A model generated the notes under the pieces. It did no database searches and was not told the origin of the DNA. It was given only the letters and a program-made list of their open reading frames with translations. A stretch of 22,232 bases of DNA from positions 1 to 22,232 of IMG/VR virus record IMGVR_UViG_3300017742_000144; one strand, 5' to 3'. Positions 6,749 to 17,970 of this stretch are shown here, in pieces. The translations under genes and the position numbers were made by a program. This DNA comes from a virus. Each line of letters begins with the position of its first letter. Position 1 is the first letter of the stretch.

Positions 6749-7180
6749 TTAATATTCGCCTATCCTGTACTCTTCATCCTTGATTTTTTCCTTCAATTCC
6801 CTCTGAAACTCAATCACTTCTACCCTGTTAAACTTAGGTGATGCTCTCCAAGATAGCTTTTGCATCGCCCTGACTCGCCTTGCTCCGTACATATCTTCCA
6901 TGTATATGCGGTAGGCTTCCTGCGTTCTGGTTGTTTTCATGCCGTAGACATTACAGGCAGGGCATTGGGGGTGAATGTTCTCCTCAAACAGCTTAAAGAC
7001 TGTGTGTCTTCTGCTGTAAAAGTGACCGCCTTGCATCGCCTTATAGTGATCTACCTTGCCGCAGGTTACGCACTGGCAGTAGCCGTTATCGTCTGAGGCT
7101 TTGAGCCTGACGTATCTCTGAAGTAGCTTAGCGGCTTTCTCTACCTCTTGGGCTACTGTTGCTTTTTTGCGCTTTGCCAT
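6749..7180 (-). CDS. ninG: NinG/Rap-like recombination nuclease
   Basis: 143 aa. Matches the lambda NinG family layout: basic N-terminus with a helix (VEKAAKLLQRYVRLKASDDN), a metal site with CQCVTCGK at residues 35-42, MQGGHFYSR at 49-57, then ENIHPQCPACN at 67-77, and the family's trailing QEAYRIYMEDMYGARRV. Cys37/Cys40 with Cys73/Cys76 form a zinc knuckle, and His53 lies in an HNH-like core. Lambda NinG (Rap) is a Holliday-junction/branched DNA nuclease acting with phage recombination. The ATG directly follows the zinc-ribbon gene's stop (TAAATG). Shorter than lambda's 204 aa, losing C-terminal sequence, but the core is complete. Confidence 0.85.
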   Translation of the reverse strand: MAKRKKATVAQEVEKAAKLLQRYVRLKASDDNGYCQCVTCGKVDHYKAMQGGHFYSRRHTVFKLFEENIHPQCPACNVYGMKTTRTQEAYRIYMEDMYGARRVRAMQKLSWRASPKFNRVEVIEFQRELKEKIKDEEYRIGEY

Positions 7181-7387
7181 TTAATGCTCAGTAGTCTTAA
7201 CAAGTATAATGGGCTGTGAACCAACTCCCATATCACAATAAGAACAAACACCATAAGCCACAAGGTCGCTAGAAGTCCACAACTCAAGCCCGCCACCACA
7301 AGTAGAACAGAACTCTTTAGTAACTCTGATATCGTTGTCATCAGTTCCATCATCATCGCCCTCTGGGAATTTAATTACTCTGCTCAT
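7181..7387 (-). CDS. 68-aa zinc-ribbon protein
   Basis: Small acidic protein with four cysteines as two CxxC pairs (Cys26/Cys29 in FCSTCGGG and Cys47/Cys50 in VCSYCDMG), spaced 17 residues apart: a classic zinc ribbon. The N-terminus RVIKFPEGDDDGTDDNDIRV is acidic and disordered. Its ATG overlaps the metallophosphoesterase stop by four bases (ATGA) and its stop abuts ninG, placing it between two DNA-processing genes. Similar tiny zinc ribbons occur in phage replication/recombination clusters; the specific role is unknown. Confidence 0.75.
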   Translation of the reverse strand: MSRVIKFPEGDDDGTDDNDIRVTKEFCSTCGGGLELWTSSDLVAYGVCSYCDMGVGSQPIILVKTTEH

Positions 7388-8565
7388 TTGACTGCATCCA
7401 CATTAATTTTCACTCTTGAATCTTCGCCATAGTCTTTATGGTAAACAATCGCTGTCATAGATCTGTTTGCATTATAGCCCGAATCGCTGTGCCATTGATC
7501 GGTAGAAGTCATGCTCGAAAAATGCTCGAAAATGAGAGTTCCTATTTCTTTAGACATTTGATGGTGTATGTGTCCCATATGACAATATCTATGTTTACAG
7601 CGCGACCATTCTTCATCTAGATTAGTCACTACAGCTTGTAAAATCTGCTCATGCTTTACTCTATCACCATGATGGTAGACAAATAAATTGTTTTCCCATT
7701 CCCAGTGCAGGAACTTTGAGTAGTTTTTAAGCACATCAACTCTAGGCTCTCTGTCGTATAGCAACTCTAAGCAACTCGATAGGTGGCAAGCCATATCAGA
7801 ATCATGGTTGCCGCGTACGTTAATTACGACCACTTCCTGATGCGTTTCTAGCATCTTATCTATAAGTATCTGGAACAACCGACCTGCTAGTTTAAAGGTC
7901 TTTCCAATGCGTGTATCAACGTCTACTGGCGTTCCTGCTGTAGTGGTGTTAGCACTGCTATCAGCGTGAAAGAAATCACCTACGTTAACCAGAACACCTG
8001 TATGCGCGTTACCTACCCTTTGCGCTAACCTATCTACTGAGTTGCTTAATATCTTTGTAGCAATCTTAACATCCCAATCATTGTCATCAAACTTGGTATC
8101 TGAGTCAGCAAGCATCCCAAAATGGTGATCGCCTATCAGATACATGGCGCAATAGTCTTCATCTACCTCTTTAGGCGGCTTAGATGGCTTTTTAAGCCCT
8201 GTTATATCATCAACCAGTCCATCCAATAGGGATTCGATTTTTGCCCGCATATCGCGTTTTAGTGGCTCTTGGATAACCCATTGCAATGCTACCGAGCCGT
8301 CTTCTTTGTATGCTGTTGAGATTCGTTTGGCTTCAAATCCCTCTGCTGTTTGGCGTGTTAAGTCTCTGTGTGGTGCTACACCTGCTAAGGCGGCTTTGTG
8401 TTCTACCAGTTTGATACTGCGGTCAATTGATCTGCGGTTAATGCCTAGCTTCTCAGCGGCTTTAGAGTTTGAGCCGTATTCTATGACGGCTTTCAGGTAC
8501 TCAATTTGTCTATCGGTTTTTGGTATGTCAAGTTCTAACAGTGTTCTTGGGTCAATCTTACTCAT
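7384..8565 (-). CDS. HTH-calcineurin-like metallophosphoesterase fusion
   Basis: 393 aa. Residues ~15-60 form a helix-turn-helix (DRQIEYLKAVIEYGSNSKAA, then LGINRRSIDRSIKLVE), resembling the DNA-binding domain of phage and transposon proteins. Residues ~138-340 hold all metal-binding motifs of the calcineurin-like superfamily: GDHHFG (145-150), GDFFH (196-200), GNHD (252-255), HHGD (298-301) and GHIHH (331-335). This active site hydrolyses phosphoesters; in SbcD/Mre11 it is a nuclease. The combination with an HTH and the neighbours NinB, NinG and annealase suggest a DNA-end or structure-specific nuclease. No SbcC-like partner is in view. Ribosome site GGAG nine bases before ATG 8565. Confidence 0.85.
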   Translation of the reverse strand: MSKIDPRTLLELDIPKTDRQIEYLKAVIEYGSNSKAAEKLGINRRSIDRSIKLVEHKAALAGVAPHRDLTRQTAEGFEAKRISTAYKEDGSVALQWVIQEPLKRDMRAKIESLLDGLVDDITGLKKPSKPPKEVDEDYCAMYLIGDHHFGMLADSDTKFDDNDWDVKIATKILSNSVDRLAQRVGNAHTGVLVNVGDFFHADSSANTTTAGTPVDVDTRIGKTFKLAGRLFQILIDKMLETHQEVVVINVRGNHDSDMACHLSSCLELLYDREPRVDVLKNYSKFLHWEWENNLFVYHHGDRVKHEQILQAVVTNLDEEWSRCKHRYCHMGHIHHQMSKEIGTLIFEHFSSMTSTDQWHSDSGYNANRSMTAIVYHKDYGEDSRVKINVDAVK

Positions 8566-8568
8566 TCC

Positions 8569-9027
8569 CTATTGCTCCTGTTGATTTTTTAACTCCGCAT
8601 ATTCGCTTTCTCGCGGTATGGTTAGTTTTATCCCCTGCTCACTTGCCCAATGATAGCACTGATCTAAGAAATGCACCATCTCGCCCTTTCCCAGTTGGCT
8701 ACTGCGTTTGACCTGACCGCTGATTTCTGTCTTGCTTATCCTGAAATCATCTGTGCCTAAGAATCTGCGCTTTAGCCAGAGCTTCCACGCCTCTACTGGG
8801 TCACCCTCTGAGACCTCAAAACCTTTCTTTTTCATACCCTTAACGATCTCTCTGCACCACATATGCAACAAGGCATTCTGGTTAAGGCTTCTTGGGTTCT
8901 GGTATGGCTCTAGCTTTACCGATAAGGGGGTGGTGAAATCCCAGTTGAGCATATCCTCAATCAGGAACTTCACCTTTTTATTTACTTCTTCTTTGTTGTT
9001 AAACTTCACAAATGCACCCTCTGTCAT
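8569..9027 (-). CDS. ninB: NinB-like recombination protein
   Basis: 152 aa. The sequence fits the NinB/YbcN family: an N-terminal strand region, LSVKLEPYQNPRSLNQNALL at residues 35-54 followed by HMWCREIVKGMKKKGFEV, a WLKRRFLG motif near 89-96, and the C-terminal block KGEMVHFLDQCYHWASEQGI then LTIPRESEYAEL. Lambda NinB (Orf) binds single-stranded DNA and helps the phage recombinase by replacing RecFOR-type mediators. This fits the neighbouring annealase, SSB and NinG. Start overlaps the upstream stop as ATGA. Complete by length (lambda NinB 146 aa). Confidence 0.8.
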   Translation of the reverse strand: MTEGAFVKFNNKEEVNKKVKFLIEDMLNWDFTTPLSVKLEPYQNPRSLNQNALLHMWCREIVKGMKKKGFEVSEGDPVEAWKLWLKRRFLGTDDFRISKTEISGQVKRSSQLGKGEMVHFLDQCYHWASEQGIKLTIPRESEYAELKNQQEQ

Positions 9028-9314
9028 ATCCTACGACTAAGCCACTTTTGTGACGTTTCTTCTATTGCTGTTTCAAACCTACTGTAGACTATATCTGTCT
9101 CACCTGACCATTCAGCGCGCCACTTTTTTGGTATGTTATGTGTTTTTAGTGGTCGCAAATCTTTATCAGTAACGTAGGATTTGCCGTACAGTCTAGAATA
9201 CAAACACTTGTAACCAACACCTGCAACCTTAGCAAATTGTTCGTAAGTGTAGGACTGTCCATTAACTAGATCAGGGTGCTTGCCCTTAAATGGTAGTTTT
9301 TTTATATTACCCAT
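9024..9314 (-). CDS. Putative DNA-binding protein, unknown family
   Basis: 96 aa from ATG 9314, which overlaps the preceding stop by eight bases and has GGAG about ten bases upstream; earlier in-frame starts sit further inside the previous gene. The N-terminus is basic (MGNIKKLPFKGKHPDLVNGQ). Residues ~20-50 contain SYTYEQFAKVAGVGYKCLYS, a likely helix-turn-helix, followed by RLYGKSYVTDKDLRPL, a pattern seen in phage HTH proteins. The C-terminal part is Trp-rich and acidic. Position between replication and recombination genes fits a DNA-binding accessory role; family not recognised. Confidence 0.65.
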   Translation of the reverse strand: MGNIKKLPFKGKHPDLVNGQSYTYEQFAKVAGVGYKCLYSRLYGKSYVTDKDLRPLKTHNIPKKWRAEWSGETDIVYSRFETAIEETSQKWLSRRI

Positions 9315-9675
9315 GTTTTCTCTCTCCATCCCAGTAGAAACCATACTTTCCCATGAAGTGATTGATGGCTCTGTTTTTTGCTTCTACGTTAGCAATCCAC
9401 GACACATCAGCTAGGCTGTCTTCAATGTTCCTATTCCTGATGCTGTGAGTTTTTGATTTAACCTGCGGTGAGCCGCCTTTGTCTTGCGCTCTAGCCAACC
9501 AAGAGTTAATAAACCTCTTAATGCCTTTAGGTGTTTTCCTGCGCGTAGGATTAGCATCTAACCAAGACTCCATTGCATTCAGCTCTTGGTAAACATTGAT
9601 CGCAGGATAAGTCTTTTCCCATTGGATAATGTCTGCCTGATCTGCCTCGTAGGTATCTCCGTTATTTAGAAGCAT
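9307..9675 (-). CDS. Replication protein, O/DnaT-like C-terminal domain
   Basis: 122 aa from ATG 9675, overlapping the previous gene by 14 bases; a longer frame exists but starts inside that gene. The core IIQWEKTYPAINVYQELNAM, then ESWLDANPTRRKTPKGIKRF and INSWLARAQDKGG, is the signature seen at the C-terminal end of phage replication initiators and DnaT/DnaD-like helicase loaders. Here it stands almost alone, preceded by the separate HTH_39 gene, as if a normal two-domain replication protein were split into two polypeptides. It likely recruits the host DnaB helicase, since no phage helicase is visible. Confidence 0.7.
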   Translation of the reverse strand: MLLNNGDTYEADQADIIQWEKTYPAINVYQELNAMESWLDANPTRRKTPKGIKRFINSWLARAQDKGGSPQVKSKTHSIRNRNIEDSLADVSWIANVEAKNRAINHFMGKYGFYWDGERKHG

Positions 9676-9886
9676 TGTTATCACCCATATAGTATTCAGC
9701 GACACTGCATTTTTCATCGTATCGGTTGGTCACTGTAATCATCTTCTTCTGGATTGGATGCCCTAGCTCTTTAAGCTCAAAGATTCTAGCGGCAACCTGT
9801 GTAATGCCTAGCTCATTAAAAGCATTTAGGCAGGTTAGTTTTTTGCCATCTTCTAAGTATTGTAGAACTCTTGATGTCTGTGTCAT
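9662..9886 (-). CDS. HTH_39-type winged-helix DNA-binding protein
   Basis: 74 aa, ATG 9886 with a GGAG ribosome site. Residues 1-50 match the HTH_39 pattern: MTQTSRVLQYLEDGKKLTCL, then NAFNELGITQVAARIFELKE, GHPIQKKM; a helix-turn-helix plus a short wing. Such proteins are common next to phage replication genes, where they bind origin DNA or regulate the operon. It is first after the 400-base inverted-repeat region and its promoter (9931-9959), so it is well placed to bind those repeats, either as origin-binding partner of the following replication protein or as an autoregulator. That pairing is inference. Confidence 0.8.
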   Translation of the reverse strand: MTQTSRVLQYLEDGKKLTCLNAFNELGITQVAARIFELKELGHPIQKKMITVTNRYDEKCSVAEYYMGDNNASK

Positions 9887-9930
9887 TTTTATAACTCCTA
9901 TGGCTCGGACAAGCCTCGCCTGATTATGTG

Positions 9931-9959
9931 ATTAAATGTGTATTTAAATATATATTCAA
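9931..9959 (-). promoter_or_regulatory. Sigma70-like promoter of replication genes
   Basis: Minus strand TTGAAT (9959-9954, four of six) then 17 bases then TTTAAT (9936-9931, five of six), in a very AT-rich stretch, ending ~45 bases before ATG 9886. It would drive the 9886-to-6749 operon. Confidence 0.55.
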
Positions 9960-9974
9960 AGACACGTTTCACCC

Positions 9975-9994
9975 TTTAACTTCGCAAAGTTAAA
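9975..9994. repeat. Inverted repeat, 8-bp arms
   Basis: TTTAACTT-CGCA-AAGTTAAA, a perfect palindrome with a four-base centre, just upstream of the 9931-9959 promoter. A CCCTTT/AAAGGG pair (9972-9977 and 10004-10009) brackets it. Could be an operator or origin element. Confidence 0.75.
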
Positions 9995-10008
9995 AATTCG
10001 ATCAAAGG

Positions 10009-10023
10009 GCAAAGCGACTTTGC
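10009..10023. repeat. Inverted repeat, 6-bp arms
   Basis: GCAAAG-CGA-CTTTGC, perfect arms with a three-base centre, 15 bases from the previous palindrome. Confidence 0.65.
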
Positions 10024-10064
10024 GGTTATTTCGTTATCGTATCGAATATCTAATCTATCCATCA

Positions 10065-10080
10065 GCAGAAACCGATCTGC
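10065..10080. repeat. Inverted repeat, 5-bp arms
   Basis: GCAGA-AACCGA-TCTGC; weaker than the others but part of the same array. Confidence 0.45.
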
Positions 10081-10184
10081 ATCAGGGGCTATGTCAAGAG
10101 GGTCAACTTCGCTCTAGTGTTTAATTTAAGATATTCACTAGCCTCTAGCCCGATAACTAAAGCGCGAAAAAAGAAAGGGAGATG

Positions 10185-10214
10185 TTACAAGACAGTAAAA
10201 TACTGTGTTAAGAT
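10185..10214 (+). promoter_or_regulatory. Weak promoter pair around a palindrome
   Basis: Plus strand TTACAA (10185-10190) and TAAGAT (10209-10214) with an 18-base spacer; the reverse reads TTAACA (10210-10205) with TAACAT (10186-10181) at 18 bases. Both directions are weak to moderate matches. The palindrome 10192-10206 fills the spacer in each case, a repressor-operator arrangement. Direction is uncertain. Confidence 0.35.
10192..10206. promoter_or_regulatory. Operator-like palindrome ACAGTA-AAA-TACTGT
   Basis: Perfect six-base arms with a three-base AT centre, ~80 bases downstream of the XRE regulator gene. Size and symmetry fit the binding site of a dimeric Cro/CI-type protein, the most likely candidate being the regulator encoded at 10291-10485. 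Confidence 0.5.
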
Positions 10215-10220
10215 TACCTT

Positions 10221-10292
10221 TCTCTATCCGCACATAGAGTATTGCAATTCTAATTGCATTTGTAAAGCCCCCTTAACAGGGGGTTTTCTTTT
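10221..10292 (+). ncRNA. Candidate ~70-nt structured small RNA
   Basis: Downstream of the weak plus-strand promoter lie three consecutive stem-loops: CTCTAT/ATAGAG (10222-10239), TGCAATT/AATTGCA (10243-10258) and CCCCC/GGGGG (10268-10283), the last followed by TTTTCTTTT. A plus-strand transcript starting near 10221 would consist almost wholly of these stems and end at an intrinsic terminator. It would be the only plus-strand unit in the window. The same stems also fold in minus-strand RNA (3' region of the XRE message), where the T-tract is poor. No known RNA family recognised. Confidence 0.35.
10268..10292 (+). terminator. Intrinsic terminator, stronger on plus strand
   Basis: CCCCC-TTAACA-GGGGG followed by TTTTCTTTT on the plus strand. 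On the minus strand the same stem follows the XRE stop codon directly but is trailed only by CTTTACAAAT, so termination of the XRE message there would be partial; the element may act in both directions. Confidence 0.65.
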
Positions 10293-10485
10293 ATAGCCCG
10301 ATAAACTCATCTAAATTGTATTCTAAGGCACTGCAAATCTTAATAGCAGTATCTAACCTAACGTTGGTTTTATTGCGCCAGATGTTAACCTGCTGTCTGT
10401 GAACGCCAACCAGTCGTGCAAGCTGTGAACTGTTTACGTTTTTTTCTTGCTGTGCTTTCTTTAAGCACTCGCCAAAATCTATCAT
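10291..10485 (-). CDS. XRE-family (Cro/CI-like) regulator
   Basis: 64 aa from ATG 10485, chosen for AGGAG eight bases upstream; an in-frame GTG/ATG at 10536/10533 would add 16-17 residues with a poorer site. Single HTH_3 domain: FGECLKKAQQEKNVNSSQLA, then RLVGVHRQQVNIWRNKTNVR, LDTAIKICSALEYNLDEFIG, the five-helix fold with recognition helix near RQQVNIWRNK. No dimerisation or autocleavage domain, so Cro-like or a single-domain repressor. It follows SSB after a GC hairpin and is followed by the inverted-repeat control region, where it probably binds. Absence of an integrase here leaves lysogeny open. Confidence 0.85.
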   Translation of the reverse strand: MIDFGECLKKAQQEKNVNSSQLARLVGVHRQQVNIWRNKTNVRLDTAIKICSALEYNLDEFIGL

Positions 10486-10548
10486 TGGTTTTTCTCCTGT
10501 GGTATATTGTCGGTGATGGTTTTCCCCGATCATCACTCCTATGGTTTA

Positions 10549-10574
10549 CCCGCCCTTTCGGGGGCGGGGTTTTT
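10549..10574 (+). terminator. GC hairpin with T5 on plus strand
   Basis: CCCGCCC-TTTCGG-GGGCGGG then G and TTTTT on the plus strand, located between the SSB stop and the XRE start. In minus-strand RNA it forms the same seven-pair stem with a CCGAAA loop but lacks a T-tract. It may block antisense transcription or, as mRNA structure, separate SSB from regulator expression. Confidence 0.55.
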
Positions 10575-10576
10575 AA

Positions 10577-10900
10577 CTAGAACGGAATGTCATCTTCTAG
10601 TAAATCAGCTTCCTGCATTACCTGCTTAACTTTCCCAGAGTTACCATATTCGCTAGTGCCATCAGGTGAACTGCTGTCTGTATAGAACACTTTTACATTG
10701 CCAAGAATAGGCGTTTTCTTTTTAGCATCGCGTTCTTCTTTGGTCTGACTCTGGCTGATAAAGCCATTGTTCTCGTATTGGTCTGCAACCGCAGTATCAA
10801 CAAAGGTGGTCAGGTCTAAATAAGTTCCTTTCGCGCCCTTGTACAGTCGTGATTTATCAATCTTGGTTACGTCAATTCTTACATTAATTCCTACTTTCAT
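10577..10900 (-). CDS. ssb: Phage single-stranded DNA-binding protein
   Basis: 107 aa. The N-terminal ~85 residues are strand-rich (MKVGINVRIDVTKIDKSRLY, GTYLDLTTFVDT, NNGFISQSQT, LGNVKVFYT) consistent with an OB fold, and the protein ends in an acidic linker and LLEDDIPF, the same DDIPF tip by which bacterial SSB recruits partner proteins. It would coat single-stranded DNA in replication and annealing. Gene order annealase-SSB is common in phages. Shorter than bacterial SSB (~170 aa), lacking the long Gly/Gln linker. Start has an AGGAG-type site; it follows the annealase by 11 bases. Confidence 0.8.
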   Translation of the reverse strand: MKVGINVRIDVTKIDKSRLYKGAKGTYLDLTTFVDTAVADQYENNGFISQSQTKEERDAKKKTPILGNVKVFYTDSSSPDGTSEYGNSGKVKQVMQEADLLEDDIPF

Positions 10901-10911
10901 TTTTACTTCTC

Positions 10912-11523
10912 CTAGTTGGCTTGTCTAAATTCAGGTAGTTTCATTATGGCGCGTTCTTGAGTAGTGAACACCCCACCTTTGCTCGGTGCTTTCCATAGCA
11001 GTTGCTTCTCTGTGTCGCTTAACTCTTTCCATGCCTCGTTTGCTGTTGAGTAATCATTAACCGCAATGCCGTCTTTAATAGCTTTAACGCTAGGCAGTAG
11101 GTCAACAATCAAGTCTTCATAGGCTTCCTTTTCCTTTGTCGCATCAGTTACTTTTTGCGGCTTAACCTCACCCATGTACAAGCACATACCAAGACCATGC
11201 ATTGCAATCGCCTTAACTAAACAGCGTATGCGCGCATCAGATATGTCTCTGCTTGTTGGGTTCTCAACAGCCTTGTTTCTAAAGTCCATAACAGGTAGCC
11301 ACATTGTGACCGCCTTTCCCTCAACTGTTACTGTCACCTCGACCTCGACAGTGTTGGTCTTGTCGCACCATCTAGGCTCGGTGTAGCTGTAGCTAGAATC
11401 AGGATAGTGTTCGCAGAGGGTAGACCAAGCCCACCCCCAAGATAGATAATGCAAGCCGCCTTTAGTGTCTATGTGATTAGACACATCAATAGCAGATAGC
11501 GTTTTCCATACGTTAGATTTCAT
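10912..11523 (-). CDS. Single-strand annealing protein, Sak3/DUF1071-like
   Basis: 203 aa. The N-terminus carries the family hallmark: NVWKTLSAIDVSNHIDTKGG followed by LHYLSWGWAWSTLCEHYPDS, then a beta-rich stretch (VEVEVTVTVEGKAVTMWLPV, MDFRNKAV) and the helical RDISDARIRCLVKAIAMHGL with GMCLYMGE. This is the DUF1071/Sak3 group of Rad52-like annealases that pair complementary strands in recombination-dependent replication. The C-terminal ~70 residues are charged and probably flexible. It forms a plausible set with SSB, NinB and NinG; no exonuclease of the lambda Exo type is visible, so the strand-resection partner may be the metallophosphoesterase or a host enzyme. Confidence 0.85.
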   Translation of the reverse strand: MKSNVWKTLSAIDVSNHIDTKGGLHYLSWGWAWSTLCEHYPDSSYSYTEPRWCDKTNTVEVEVTVTVEGKAVTMWLPVMDFRNKAVENPTSRDISDARIRCLVKAIAMHGLGMCLYMGEVKPQKVTDATKEKEAYEDLIVDLLPSVKAIKDGIAVNDYSTANEAWKELSDTEKQLLWKAPSKGGVFTTQERAIMKLPEFRQAN

Positions 11524-11719
11524 TGTATTTTTCTCCCATAGTTTGTTTTATAAATGGCTCAAAGATTTGCTCAGAGTACCAAGTTGCATTTGCTTCTTTG
11601 GCATAAGTCTCGCCATAGCCTCTGTAGTATTCATCTGAGTCGCAATCTCTTGCTGTGTGACCATGAACGCAATCCCATTCCCCGCGCTCGTAGTCAGAAA
11701 GTTTATTTATATCTGTCAT
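11513..11719 (-). CDS. Unknown 68-aa protein
   Basis: ATG 11719 with AAAGGAG seven bases upstream; end overlaps the annealase start by 11 bases. The sequence has a GEWDCVHGHTARDCDSDEYY pattern followed by RGYGETYAKEANATWYSEQI, a Cys/His/Tyr-containing motif that recurs in small phage proteins of unknown role. Acidic, soluble, no membrane segment. A metal site with the two Cys and His is possible. Early-operon position suggests a host-interaction or DNA-metabolism accessory role. Confidence 0.7.
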   Translation of the reverse strand: MTDINKLSDYERGEWDCVHGHTARDCDSDEYYRGYGETYAKEANATWYSEQIFEPFIKQTMGEKYNEI

Positions 11720-11733
11720 ATTAGACTCCTTTG

Positions 11734-11755
11734 GTTGCCCCCTTTCGGGGGCTGT
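11734..11755 (-). repeat. 22-bp GAAA-loop hairpin, copy 2
   Basis: Perfect 22-base copy of 6341-6362, again between the stop of one gene and the ribosome site of the next. Minus-strand RNA forms GCCCCC-GAAA-GGGGGC. No T-tract follows. Confidence 0.8.
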
Positions 11756-11758
11756 AGT

Positions 11759-11995
11759 TTATAACAAACCATAAACTGGCGTTTGCTCCTGCACTCGATA
11801 ATCGTTAGCATTTTTTATATTTGCCAACAATGCTGTTTGCGCCTCGCCTTTGGTTTTGTATTTTTTATGCAAACCTTTTTCTACAATTACTTTTTCTAAC
11901 TTTTCAACTCTTTCCTTTTCTTGTCGCCAGTTTTTAGGGCGAAAGTTTTGGCAAGGAATAATGCAGTAATGTGGCTTGCCATGTGTAATAGCCAT
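11759..11995 (-). CDS. Unknown 78-aa basic protein
   Basis: Start at ATG 11995, which has an excellent AAGGAG site at eight bases; the frame is open 12 codons further upstream but those cover the leader. First gene of the early unit after the 12050-12077 promoter. The product MAITHGKPHYCIIPCQNFRP has a Cys-x5-Cys near the N-terminus, then a Lys/Arg/Glu-rich helix (NWRQEKERVEKLEKVIVEKG) and TKGEAQTALLANIKNANDYR. Probably soluble and helical, perhaps nucleic acid-binding. No family recognised. Confidence 0.7.
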   Translation of the reverse strand: MAITHGKPHYCIIPCQNFRPKNWRQEKERVEKLEKVIVEKGLHKKYKTKGEAQTALLANIKNANDYRVQEQTPVYGLL

Positions 11996-12049
11996 AATTT
12001 TCTCCTTTTGATTAAATTTTAAAGAACACATCTCTATTGATGTAAAGCG

Positions 12050-15210: not shown

Positions 15211-17970
15211 TTATATTCCTGTGCTTGTTATTCTTACTCGTGCATCTTTGACCTGAGCCGAATCAGTTGAAGACAGTTCTTTAACATTTAACTTATAAGC
15301 CAAATTTTCATCGGTGTAGGGTAGTTTAAAGCTAACATTATGTCGTTCAGCACCTGCCCTATATTTCTCTGCAAAGTCTTTATAAACAAGAAGTTGTGCG
15401 TTTGCGTTTTGCCACGCATAAGGGTGGAAATAAACAGTATCGCCAGTTGCTATAGGGTCTGTAGTGTTTGTAGCGCAGAAGTATGTTCTATCCGAATCAG
15501 ATTGATACTGTACTGCTACAACTTGCTGTTTAACATTGCCTGAACTAGTTTGAGATACTCTGCCGAACTCTGTGAATAAGTGTTCGTAATTTCCTGTAAC
15601 GTAATACCACTGCTCATTACTTTGCCGTGTGCTATAATAGGATGAAGATGAAAAAGCATTAGCAGTTCCTATGCTAACGGCTGAAACAGTGCTTGGTACA
15701 GTTAGATAAAAAGAAAGTCTAATGTCATTATTAGAAGTGCTTATATAACTCCAAAATGTAGTCCACTCTATATCAACAAAACGCATAGTCTCTACAGGGG
15801 TGCTAGGGTGATAAAGAGTTTGATATTGCCCTAGATTCTGGTTTGCTGTTGTTAAGGAAAGTTGCTGATTAAAAGAACTTATCCTATCATCTCTAACTCT
15901 ATGATAAGGAATAGTATCTAACTTAGTACCATCTGTGGCTACGTCTCTGCCGTCTACTGTACCGCCTACAGTTATGTCACCTGCTACGTCTAGATCAGTT
16001 CCGTTAGTCAACTCTAATGCTGTCGGAGTTAGCGACATTAGTTTAGTTTCTGAACTGTTTTTGCGAGTGTAGAAGTCTAACTGACCATCATGGCTAGCAG
16101 GTGTTACATCATTGAGAACAGCTTTTATTCCTGCATATTCTCTGATCGCTGATGCACCAACTTTACCATAAAACTCTATCTGACCAATTTGGTCTGCATT
16201 TGCCTGACTTGCTGAGTTCCGCACCAACCTCATAGTTGGCGACTCTACAGTCCCATCATCAGTACTAGTAAGAGTCAAAGCGGGTACTGTGGTAGAAGCC
16301 TGCGTGATACTTATGTTGCCTGTACCAGTAATGTCATTGCCGTTAAGGTCTAAATTACCGCCTAGCTGTGGGCTAGTATCATCTACTAAGTCCTGCATTG
16401 CAGAGTTAGCAGTTGTAGTCGTAGAAGTTAGAACTGCATCTCGTGCCGCTATGTCTACCCCATCTACTGTTCCATTTGCTGTAATGTTGCCCGCAACAGT
16501 AAGAGACTGTGTGCCTGATGGCGGAGTGCCTATATTTACATTGCCAGTAAACGTAGCACCCGACAAGTTTGCTTTACCTGAAATGTCTTGATGTGTTGTA
16601 AGGTATGTTTGCAAATCACTTATTTGTGATTCAGTAATGCTTATTGCCGCTTGGTGCTGAGTAACACTGCTTTCTGTAATGTTTGCATCTGGTACGTTTG
16701 CCCAAGTTACAGTTGTTGATAGGTCATTAGTCTCTGCTGTTAAGTAACCCTCAGTGCTGTGATCGCCCCAACTATAGGCTGTATCCCAGTTAGAAATCTT
16801 AGTCGCATCTTCCGTCCACTTAGTACCAATGCTATTGGTTACTGTAGTAGAGAAGTTAGCATCATCACCTAATGCAGATGCTAGTTCGTTTAGAGTATCA
16901 AGGGTAGCAGGTGCAGAATCCACAAGACCGCTAACAGCTGTGTCTACATAGGTTTCAGTTGCGTAGGTGCTAGAGTCTACAGAGTAACCGCCAGAACCAT
17001 CTGTGGTCATTATCCCTGCGCTAGTAAAATCACCATCAACAACTACGTCAGCATGACTAGTCTCTGCTGATGCTACCTGAGTAGCAAAGCTCGCAGTTGT
17101 AGCTAGGTTATTGCTATCGCCAATAAAAATGTTGCCATTGTTAAGGTTAGGTGTAGCGTTAGTACGCCCTGCGCCCATTACTTTAATGTTTCCGCTAGTA
17201 TGCGCCCTAACTACTTTGGCAATCTTCTGGACTAGGTTGCCCTCGCCTGATGGTGCAGTAGCAGTTAATTGCCCTGCTGTTGTGGATACATATAGCTCAT
17301 CGCCATCAGTGTAAGTACTTGTGTCGATAGACTTCAGAGTTCCAAAGGTTACAACATCTACATTAACGCCAACTGGGTCTGCGGCAACAATACCGAATGC
17401 AGGCATCTTATCACTGTCGCTTGCATCTGCTAAGTCGACTTCTGTCTTTTGCCCAGAATGACCAGACACATAGACAACATCGCCTTTAGTTAAAGTAGCA
17501 CCGCTTGCAACTGCGCCTTTGAAATGTACTGCGCCCTCTATATCGCCTTTAAATAATTCTGCTTCTGCGCTTCCGTTAACTGTTAGTTCGCCATTTGTAA
17601 TGGTTACATCGCCAGTGAAGTCTGCACCAGTAAGCATAGCCGCACCTGCGGCAGATACGTTTGCAGATGTAATGTATTGGACAACACTAGACTCAGTGAT
17701 ATTGGCATCAGGTACGTCAGCCCAAGTTACTGTAGTAGTCAGGTCATTTTCTTCTGTTACTGCGGCAAGCTGATCTATTGCACCCTGAACATTAGTAGCG
17801 GTGACTAAGCCTGATGGCGTCACGGCTAAATATGAAGCATCAAAAACAACAGAGGGAATAGCTGTATTAACTGTGATTGGCTGTACTACTTCAGCAGTCG
17901 AAATCACCACATCATCAGTTGATATAGAGATATTATTTGAAATTTTATTGACCGCTATAGTGATCGCCAT
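15211..17970 (-). CDS. Large tail fibre / receptor-binding protein
   Basis: 919 aa, Thr/Ser/Ala/Asp-rich, start coupled by TAATG. Residues 1-74: N-terminal attachment with TNVQGAIDQLAA; 75-99 and 415-437: two near-identical units (NDLTTTVTWADVPDANITES / NDLSTTVTWANVPDANITES); 150-260: a beta domain GAVASGATLTKGDVVYVSGH typical of phage fibres; 340-382: DSAPATLDTLNELASALGDD, widely shared fibre motif; 465-690: triple beta-helix style repeats with GNITANGTVDGVDIA and GDITVGGTVDGRDVA; 700-919: a unique C-terminal domain (aromatic, probable receptor-binding tip). No S74 self-cleaving chaperone end. It should trimerise at the tail tip and determine host attachment. Confidence 0.88.
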   Translation of the reverse strand: MAITIAVNKISNNISISTDDVVISTAEVVQPITVNTAIPSVVFDASYLAVTPSGLVTATNVQGAIDQLAAVTEENDLTTTVTWADVPDANITESSVVQYITSANVSAAGAAMLTGADFTGDVTITNGELTVNGSAEAELFKGDIEGAVHFKGAVASGATLTKGDVVYVSGHSGQKTEVDLADASDSDKMPAFGIVAADPVGVNVDVVTFGTLKSIDTSTYTDGDELYVSTTAGQLTATAPSGEGNLVQKIAKVVRAHTSGNIKVMGAGRTNATPNLNNGNIFIGDSNNLATTASFATQVASAETSHADVVVDGDFTSAGIMTTDGSGGYSVDSSTYATETYVDTAVSGLVDSAPATLDTLNELASALGDDANFSTTVTNSIGTKWTEDATKISNWDTAYSWGDHSTEGYLTAETNDLSTTVTWANVPDANITESSVTQHQAAISITESQISDLQTYLTTHQDISGKANLSGATFTGNVNIGTPPSGTQSLTVAGNITANGTVDGVDIAARDAVLTSTTTTANSAMQDLVDDTSPQLGGNLDLNGNDITGTGNISITQASTTVPALTLTSTDDGTVESPTMRLVRNSASQANADQIGQIEFYGKVGASAIREYAGIKAVLNDVTPASHDGQLDFYTRKNSSETKLMSLTPTALELTNGTDLDVAGDITVGGTVDGRDVATDGTKLDTIPYHRVRDDRISSFNQQLSLTTANQNLGQYQTLYHPSTPVETMRFVDIEWTTFWSYISTSNNDIRLSFYLTVPSTVSAVSIGTANAFSSSSYYSTRQSNEQWYYVTGNYEHLFTEFGRVSQTSSGNVKQQVVAVQYQSDSDRTYFCATNTTDPIATGDTVYFHPYAWQNANAQLLVYKDFAEKYRAGAERHNVSFKLPYTDENLAYKLNVKELSSTDSAQVKDARVRITSTGI

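Follow-up and report, generated by a model that had tools for sequence, protein, structure and literature searches.

In ColE1-type origins a promoter drives a long folded transcript, the RNA II pre-primer, and an AT-rich region precedes or coincides with the place where synthesis starts. In a replisome organizer, the DNA-binding half usually finds the origin and the C-terminal half recruits the helicase machinery. The EAR antitermination leader, a folded leader RNA, also has a pseudoknot. The R-loop origins of bacteriophage T4 combine a promoter with an easily melted tract, and the RNA serves as leading-strand primer (PMC3016281). ARRPOF is a large conserved structured RNA that is tied to plasmid replication (PMC12641628).

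We analysed a stretch of marine phage DNA of 22,232 nucleotides (the window), in which a gap between genes encodes a structured RNA upstream of a short gene, CL1. The locus resembles ColE1-type origins in that the site would be set by RNA and not by an initiator protein, and in that the conserved predicted promoter and the AT-rich tract would bring a folded transcript over an easily melted site. It differs from them because neither sequence nor fold matches (the best match to Rfam RNAI is at chance level), and because an initiator fragment, CL1, is always present here. The Pfam families listed (25 of 26) include no full initiator. Promoter and easily melted tract also recall the phage origins of T4, although an RNA-DNA hybrid is only proposed here. 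We know of no conserved RNA fold that defines the T4 origins, in contrast to the phage RNA. With ARRPOF the locus shares a large conserved structured RNA tied to the replication of a mobile replicon, but host range and partner gene are different and the phage RNA matches no Rfam family. HK022 put and EAR are likewise folded leader RNAs at the 5' end of an operon transcript; the phage RNA has a much larger fold, is tied to CL1 and lost with it, and matches no Rfam family. Finally, the C-terminal domains of phiRgIBDN1 gp42 and of the VPBES replication initiation protein are homologous to CL1, which differs from both in standing alone, without the N-terminal DNA-binding domain.

Inverted repeats and the structured RNA core

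The gap spans 404 bases (9887-10290) and is bounded by minus-strand genes ending at 10291 and starting at 9886. The genes around it are:

7384..8565, minus strand: 'DNA repair exonuclease' with a winged helix and a calcineurin-like phosphoesterase, through which relatives were sought independently of the RNA
9307..9717, minus strand: CL1, a stand-alone C-terminal domain of a replisome organizer/replication initiator (by homology and co-occurrence)
9662..9886, minus strand: HTH_39 winged helix-turn-helix gene, one of several alternatives directly after the RNA
10291..10536, minus strand: XRE/Cro-like regulator, the gene that usually precedes the element
10912..11523, minus strand: Sak single-strand annealing protein, on the upstream side of the locus

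An earlier, sequence-only reading had described the region as free of genes, packed with inverted repeats, lacking a DnaA box, and flanked by SSB, annealase and XRE genes on one side and HTH_39 on the other. All of this agrees with our results, with Sak as the annealase and an SSB-like gene in the SSB position. Two plus-strand open reading frames overlap the gap (9726-9923 and 10117-10296); since indels among the relatives are not multiples of three, neither frame is conserved. We counted 8 perfect inverted repeats with arms of at least 6 and loops of at most 20 bases, against 1.9 (sd 1.2) in 100 dinucleotide shuffles, none of which reached 8. With loops widened to 60 there were 15 repeats against 5.8 (0 of 100 shuffles), while the excess was weaker for arms of at least 7 (5 against 1.5; 4 of 100 shuffles). 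Both strands of the gap also had better fold energies than the shuffles (z of -3.3 and -3.6). No DnaA box was found near the gap; the single TTATNCACA of the whole window lies at 15571, compared with 1.45 expected. Iteron arrays were absent from 7000-12000, and an origin of the iteron/DnaA type was not recognised.

Relatives were gathered via neighbouring genes, a short conserved motif and a distant operon gene (the exonuclease). A profile search of the first 290 loci located the core in 178; some of these loci overlap on one contig. This gave 64 core sequences less than 96% alike, of which 60 were aligned for pair counts. The following elements were assigned:

9969..10158, minus strand: structured RNA core of 190 nt (60-sequence alignment, RNAalifold, covariance model)
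10151-10157/10033-10039, minus strand: core helix P1
10146-10150/10087-10091, minus strand: core helix P2
10136-10141/10114-10119, minus strand: core helix P3
10107-10109/10096-10098, minus strand: core helix P4
10076-10086/10059-10069, minus strand: core helix P5
10054-10058/10041-10045, minus strand: core helix P6
10018-10022/10003-10007, minus strand: core helix P7
9988-9994/9975-9981, minus strand: core helix P8
10023..10074, minus strand: pseudoknot of hairpin loop CGGU (10071-10074) with ACCG (10023-10026)

This structure has 49 pairs. In the 60-sequence alignment 97.1% of the cells were paired, and two-sided changes occurred in 34 of the 49 pairs. Cells with two-sided changes numbered 435, against 127 in shuffles and only 34-43 when the partner strand was slid by one to three columns. 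RNAalifold, unaided, returned the same nested helices, with two-sided changes in 31 of 39 pairs. The pseudoknot was paired in 98.8%, with the partner 45-52 nt downstream of the loop. Relatives showed compensatory swaps to CGAU/AUCG, CGGC/GCCG and CAGU/ACUG, and in a divergent group recovered with the covariance model the pseudoknot was swapped whole to UGAC/GUCA. Read on the minus strand, the core pairs contained 103 G-U against 7 A-C, which implies that the functional molecule is an RNA of minus-strand sense, like the downstream genes. The covariance model found one copy in the window, at 214.8 bits. Compensatory changes above the controls and strand specificity (G-U over A-C) identify a structured noncoding RNA, with fold, strand and conservation established by computation. 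We are nearly certain that this RNA family is real and previously undescribed.

According to the alignments, then, the repeats are helices of one conserved, covarying RNA, which the earlier reading had missed, and not separate protein sites. That reading had seen in the region a candidate origin or switch and had offered either several binding proteins or a folded RNA or DNA structure. Conserved arms with compensatory changes in the aligned relatives strongly support the folded structure, as RNA; for the core, several binding proteins found no support. DNA sites, in the form of a protein-bound origin or an operator cluster for the HTH_39 and XRE proteins, were half suggested by the earlier reading and are disfavoured as an explanation of the core. 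The palindrome in the promoter spacer and the AT-rich palindrome at 9934-9969 do look like operators. However, a G-U count 15 times that of A-C in the core, together with the pseudoknot, fits RNA and not double-stranded binding sites, and HTH_39 is missing in a third of the RNA-bearing loci. Overall, we regard DNA sites as highly improbable.

The core varies in a few respects. Extra hairpins are inserted at two different places (L173:8064-8272 and L166:2556-2771) and mark loops that tolerate growth. A shortened core of 177 nt without the CCCTTTGATC segment occurs in L168, L266 and related loci (e.g. L367, L368 and L370), where the loop TTGGC and a downstream GCC could still form the pseudoknot. 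An early candidate pairing in the core, GAGG/CCUC, was dropped as it is broken in two relatives.

Searches of the window with the Rfam 15 covariance models gave no family at the gathering threshold. The best permissive match was Phe_leader (31 bits against a threshold of 55), which lies over the terminator, outside the core. We found no covariance-model matches outside this phage group and no direct sequence matches to the element in phage isolates or plasmids, and the RNA was absent from all twenty other records searched. The 23 pattern matches in genome contigs, considered as bacterial prophage copies, were judged to be chance by the profile and the covariance model. Few new RNA families reach this size while also showing clear covariation and a pseudoknot.

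Promoter, leader hairpin and AT-rich tract

The core is surrounded by further elements:

10264..10287, plus strand: terminator-like hairpin between the XRE gene and the promoter
10238..10266, minus strand: predicted promoter TTTACA-17-AATACT (from sequence; conserved in relatives)
10243-10258, minus strand: candidate operator, palindrome TGCAATT-C-TAATTGCA in the promoter spacer (palindromic in relatives)
10159..10231, minus strand: optional 5' domain (GCGGATAGAGAAAGG ... CCTTTCTTTTTTCGCGC), whose covariation was not counted separately
9924..9968, minus strand: AT-rich tract following the core, candidate unwinding site
9895..9920, minus strand: leader hairpin with tandem GA and ribosome-binding site (kept in relatives)

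Both the promoter and the hairpin terminator noted from the sequence alone were recovered, the former on the minus strand and kept in relatives, the latter in plus-strand direction. In 13 representatives 6 nt separate the end of a promoter of this type from the core, so that the core begins at about +1. Only members with a promoter about 80 nt further up, as in the window, carry the 5' domain. The sequence of the promoter spacer varies between relatives while its palindromy is retained; the palindrome thus appears to behave as expected of an operator.

Downstream of the core, the AT content was 83-91% at +10 to +40, compared with about 63% further on (mean of 63 loci). In the window this tract contains an imperfect palindrome of 36 nt (9934-9969). 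It is followed by the tandem-GA hairpin GGC-GA-GG...CC-GA-GCC at 9902-9920 and the ribosome-binding site AGGAG at 9895-9899. Covariation was seen in the outer stem of this hairpin (GGC/GCC, GGT/ACC, GAC/GTC, TTC/GAA) as well as in the inner stem (GGC/GCC, AACT/AGTT, CGC/GCG).

This arrangement bears on the main rival to a role in replication, a cis-regulatory leader of the early/replication operon. Such a leader, whether a processive antiterminator of the HK022 put or EAR kind, an attenuator or a translation switch, would act on RNA polymerase or the ribosome and not on DNA replication. The RNA starts at about +1 and leads up to a ribosome-binding site, beyond which lies a long operon on one strand. 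The GA hairpin and the ribosome-binding site beside it are retained unchanged whichever gene comes next. A long structured 5' leader fits control of transcription or translation equally well, and the family matches listed include no recognisable antiterminator. We nevertheless consider a regulatory leader less likely than a replication origin, because of the gene content described below.

An antisense RNA resembling RNA I of ColE1 would run on the plus strand; the plus-strand terminator at 10264-10287 is there, but no plus-strand promoter was found nearby. Two further perfect G+C-rich intergenic hairpins (10549-10568 and 11737-11752) have T runs on the plus strand and are thus oriented opposite to all genes of the window.

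Gene neighbourhood and co-occurrence with CL1

The order of the locus is Sak, SSB-like gene, XRE, RNA, a variable gene, CL1, CL0, NinB and exonuclease. In the relatives the RNA always precedes the same replication/nin operon in the same orientation, a constant position that was likewise established by computation. In four loci (L200, L131, L256 and L166) the upstream Sak/SSB side is inverted, yet the RNA keeps its orientation towards the downstream operon, which implies that it belongs to that operon. A free-standing, trans-acting RNA that is merely made here, for instance for host take-over, as a decoy, in anti-defence or in packaging, would agree with the compact, conserved, pseudoknotted fold and the RNA's own promoter. 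We found no minus-strand-sense terminator after the core, however, and with position and orientation towards the replication operon fixed in relatives, we consider a trans-acting RNA improbable.

The slot directly after the RNA varies and looks like a cargo site. It holds HTH_39, C5 and N6/N4 DNA methyltransferases, HNH-like and other genes, and possibly Mom-like acetyltransferase proteins (read by eye), as seen in L020, L022, L023, L169, L170, L174, L193 and others. HTH_39 was rejected as a constant partner, as its homologues occur without the RNA and the gene is absent in 28 of the 83 RNA-bearing loci. The latter also makes binding by HTH_39 unlikely as the core function.

Conversely, CL1 accompanied the RNA throughout. 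Selecting loci solely by the exonuclease gene, and requiring one or more upstream markers, gave 85. RNA and CL1 occurred together in 83 of these and were both absent in two, a pairing obtained by computation from the gene content. The two loci without RNA and CL1 form one lineage and carry an O-like replication initiator (PHROG 270, 4e-15). These two, like three more contigs of the lineage, have the O-like initiator together with an unclassified protein of 157 aa at this place. In this lineage (L336, L341 and L410-L412) the O-like gene holds two 13-nt direct repeats 22 bases apart. Identities were 62% for HTH39, 39% for CL0 and 44% for NinB, compared with 78% for the exonuclease. This larger divergence suggests exchange of the whole block, so that the joint loss of RNA and CL1 does not represent two independent events; the lineage is in effect one independent case.

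These observations speak against a regulatory leader. The gene right after the RNA changes freely, the RNA is absent with the O-like initiator though the same downstream operon remains, and a purely regulatory RNA would not be expected to track CL1.

CL1 is a protein of 136 aa. Over 86 residues it is 48% identical to the C-terminal end of phiRgIBDN1 gp42, a 'replisome organizer'. It aligns only to residues 169-252 of gp42, whose N-terminal part is common to replication initiators of lactococcal and streptococcal phages. Furthermore, 22 of 43 CL1 members matched the C-terminal part (188-253 of 281) of PHROG 1032, 'replication initiation protein'. Compared with a replisome organizer or O-like initiator, CL1 has the C-terminal domain and lacks the N-terminal, origin-binding winged-helix domain. 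By homology, CL1 is therefore the C-terminal half of a replisome organizer without its DNA-binding half. Its AlphaFold2 model (mean pLDDT 78) resembles parts of longer phage proteins, while comparison of the modelled fold with the PDB gave no match. Within the Pfam families listed (25 of 26) for one complete RNA-bearing genome there was no initiator, helicase or primase; the PHROG listing covered 25 of 82 entries. Pelagiphage HTVC111P, which by terminase is the closest cultured relative, has a DnaD-domain gene. CL1 was found in only two of the twenty other records, the vibriophages 1.122.A and 1.275.O.

Proposed replication-origin model and a possible parallel in vibriophages

Since CL1 lacks the DNA-binding half and is constantly accompanied by a structured RNA, we propose that the RNA takes the place of the origin-binding domain. 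The RNA would fold while it is transcribed through its own origin, and the folded RNA would mark the site in place of the DNA-binding initiator domain. Perhaps the RNA would remain hybridised across the AT-rich tract, forming an R-loop or acting as a primer. CL1 would bind and bring the host helicase machinery to the RNA-marked site. On the same transcript, the GA hairpin and ribosome-binding site would then serve translation of the operon. Each step of this mechanism has a precedent in the T4 R-loop origins and ARRPOF.

We put the chance that the cis-acting RNA, made from its own minus-strand promoter, and CL1 together constitute a replication origin at about even, and the same holds for a role of the RNA in the initiation of replication. 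The specific R-loop version is less likely than this replication role. More tentatively, below an even chance, the co-transcribed RNA may replace the origin-recognition half of the initiator, mark and open the origin, and recruit the truncated organizer. This arrangement would have arisen at least twice in marine phages, the second time with the apparently unrelated vibriophage element described below. If true, RNA would have taken over origin recognition from a protein. The tracking of a headless initiator offers a concrete idea of how replication may start in small marine phages that have no recognised initiator.

The sequence-only reading had expected the skew to change at the gap, but GC skew showed no sign change there. 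Across 15 genomes, the third-position GC split peaked within three of twenty bins of the RNA, while the T-A split ran opposite to it and tail-fibre genes dominated the signal. GC skew was therefore rejected as an origin test: there was no sign change, the GC and TA splits disagreed and tail fibres confounded them. The earlier suggestion of a candidate origin is plausible but unproven. It gains new indirect support, in that the RNA tracks a headless organizer and is absent with an O-like initiator; the skew does not change sign.

In the vibriophages 1.122.A and 1.275.O the stand-alone CL1 is preceded by about 600 gene-free bases. These contain a second conserved element (L466:2762-3373 and L467:3136-3739, respectively), located before a methyltransferase and CL1. 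Most of the stretch is conserved in phage NF (L471), and a 41-base piece of it in about twenty other vibriophages. The genes after the element in NF include a replication protein of 185 aa that matches only C-terminal parts of O-like and DnaD-like initiators. The covariance model of the phage RNA did not match the vibriophage region, which implies that the vibriophage element is unrelated or too diverged. Rfam gave no match to the element either, and we found no relatives of the vibriophage CL1 in IMG/VR. In several element-bearing vibriophages (jenny 12G5, 1.071.A and K68) no C-terminal initiator was seen near the element, which makes the parallel a lead and not proof. It sits in cultured isolates, so that the idea is testable at the bench. 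Folding of the single sequence was no better than shuffles (z of -0.06). An alignment of eight elements hints at structure, with a weaker signal in the same direction as in the phage RNA: two-sided changes occurred in 15 of 59 predicted pairs, and G-U numbered 69 against 16 A-C.
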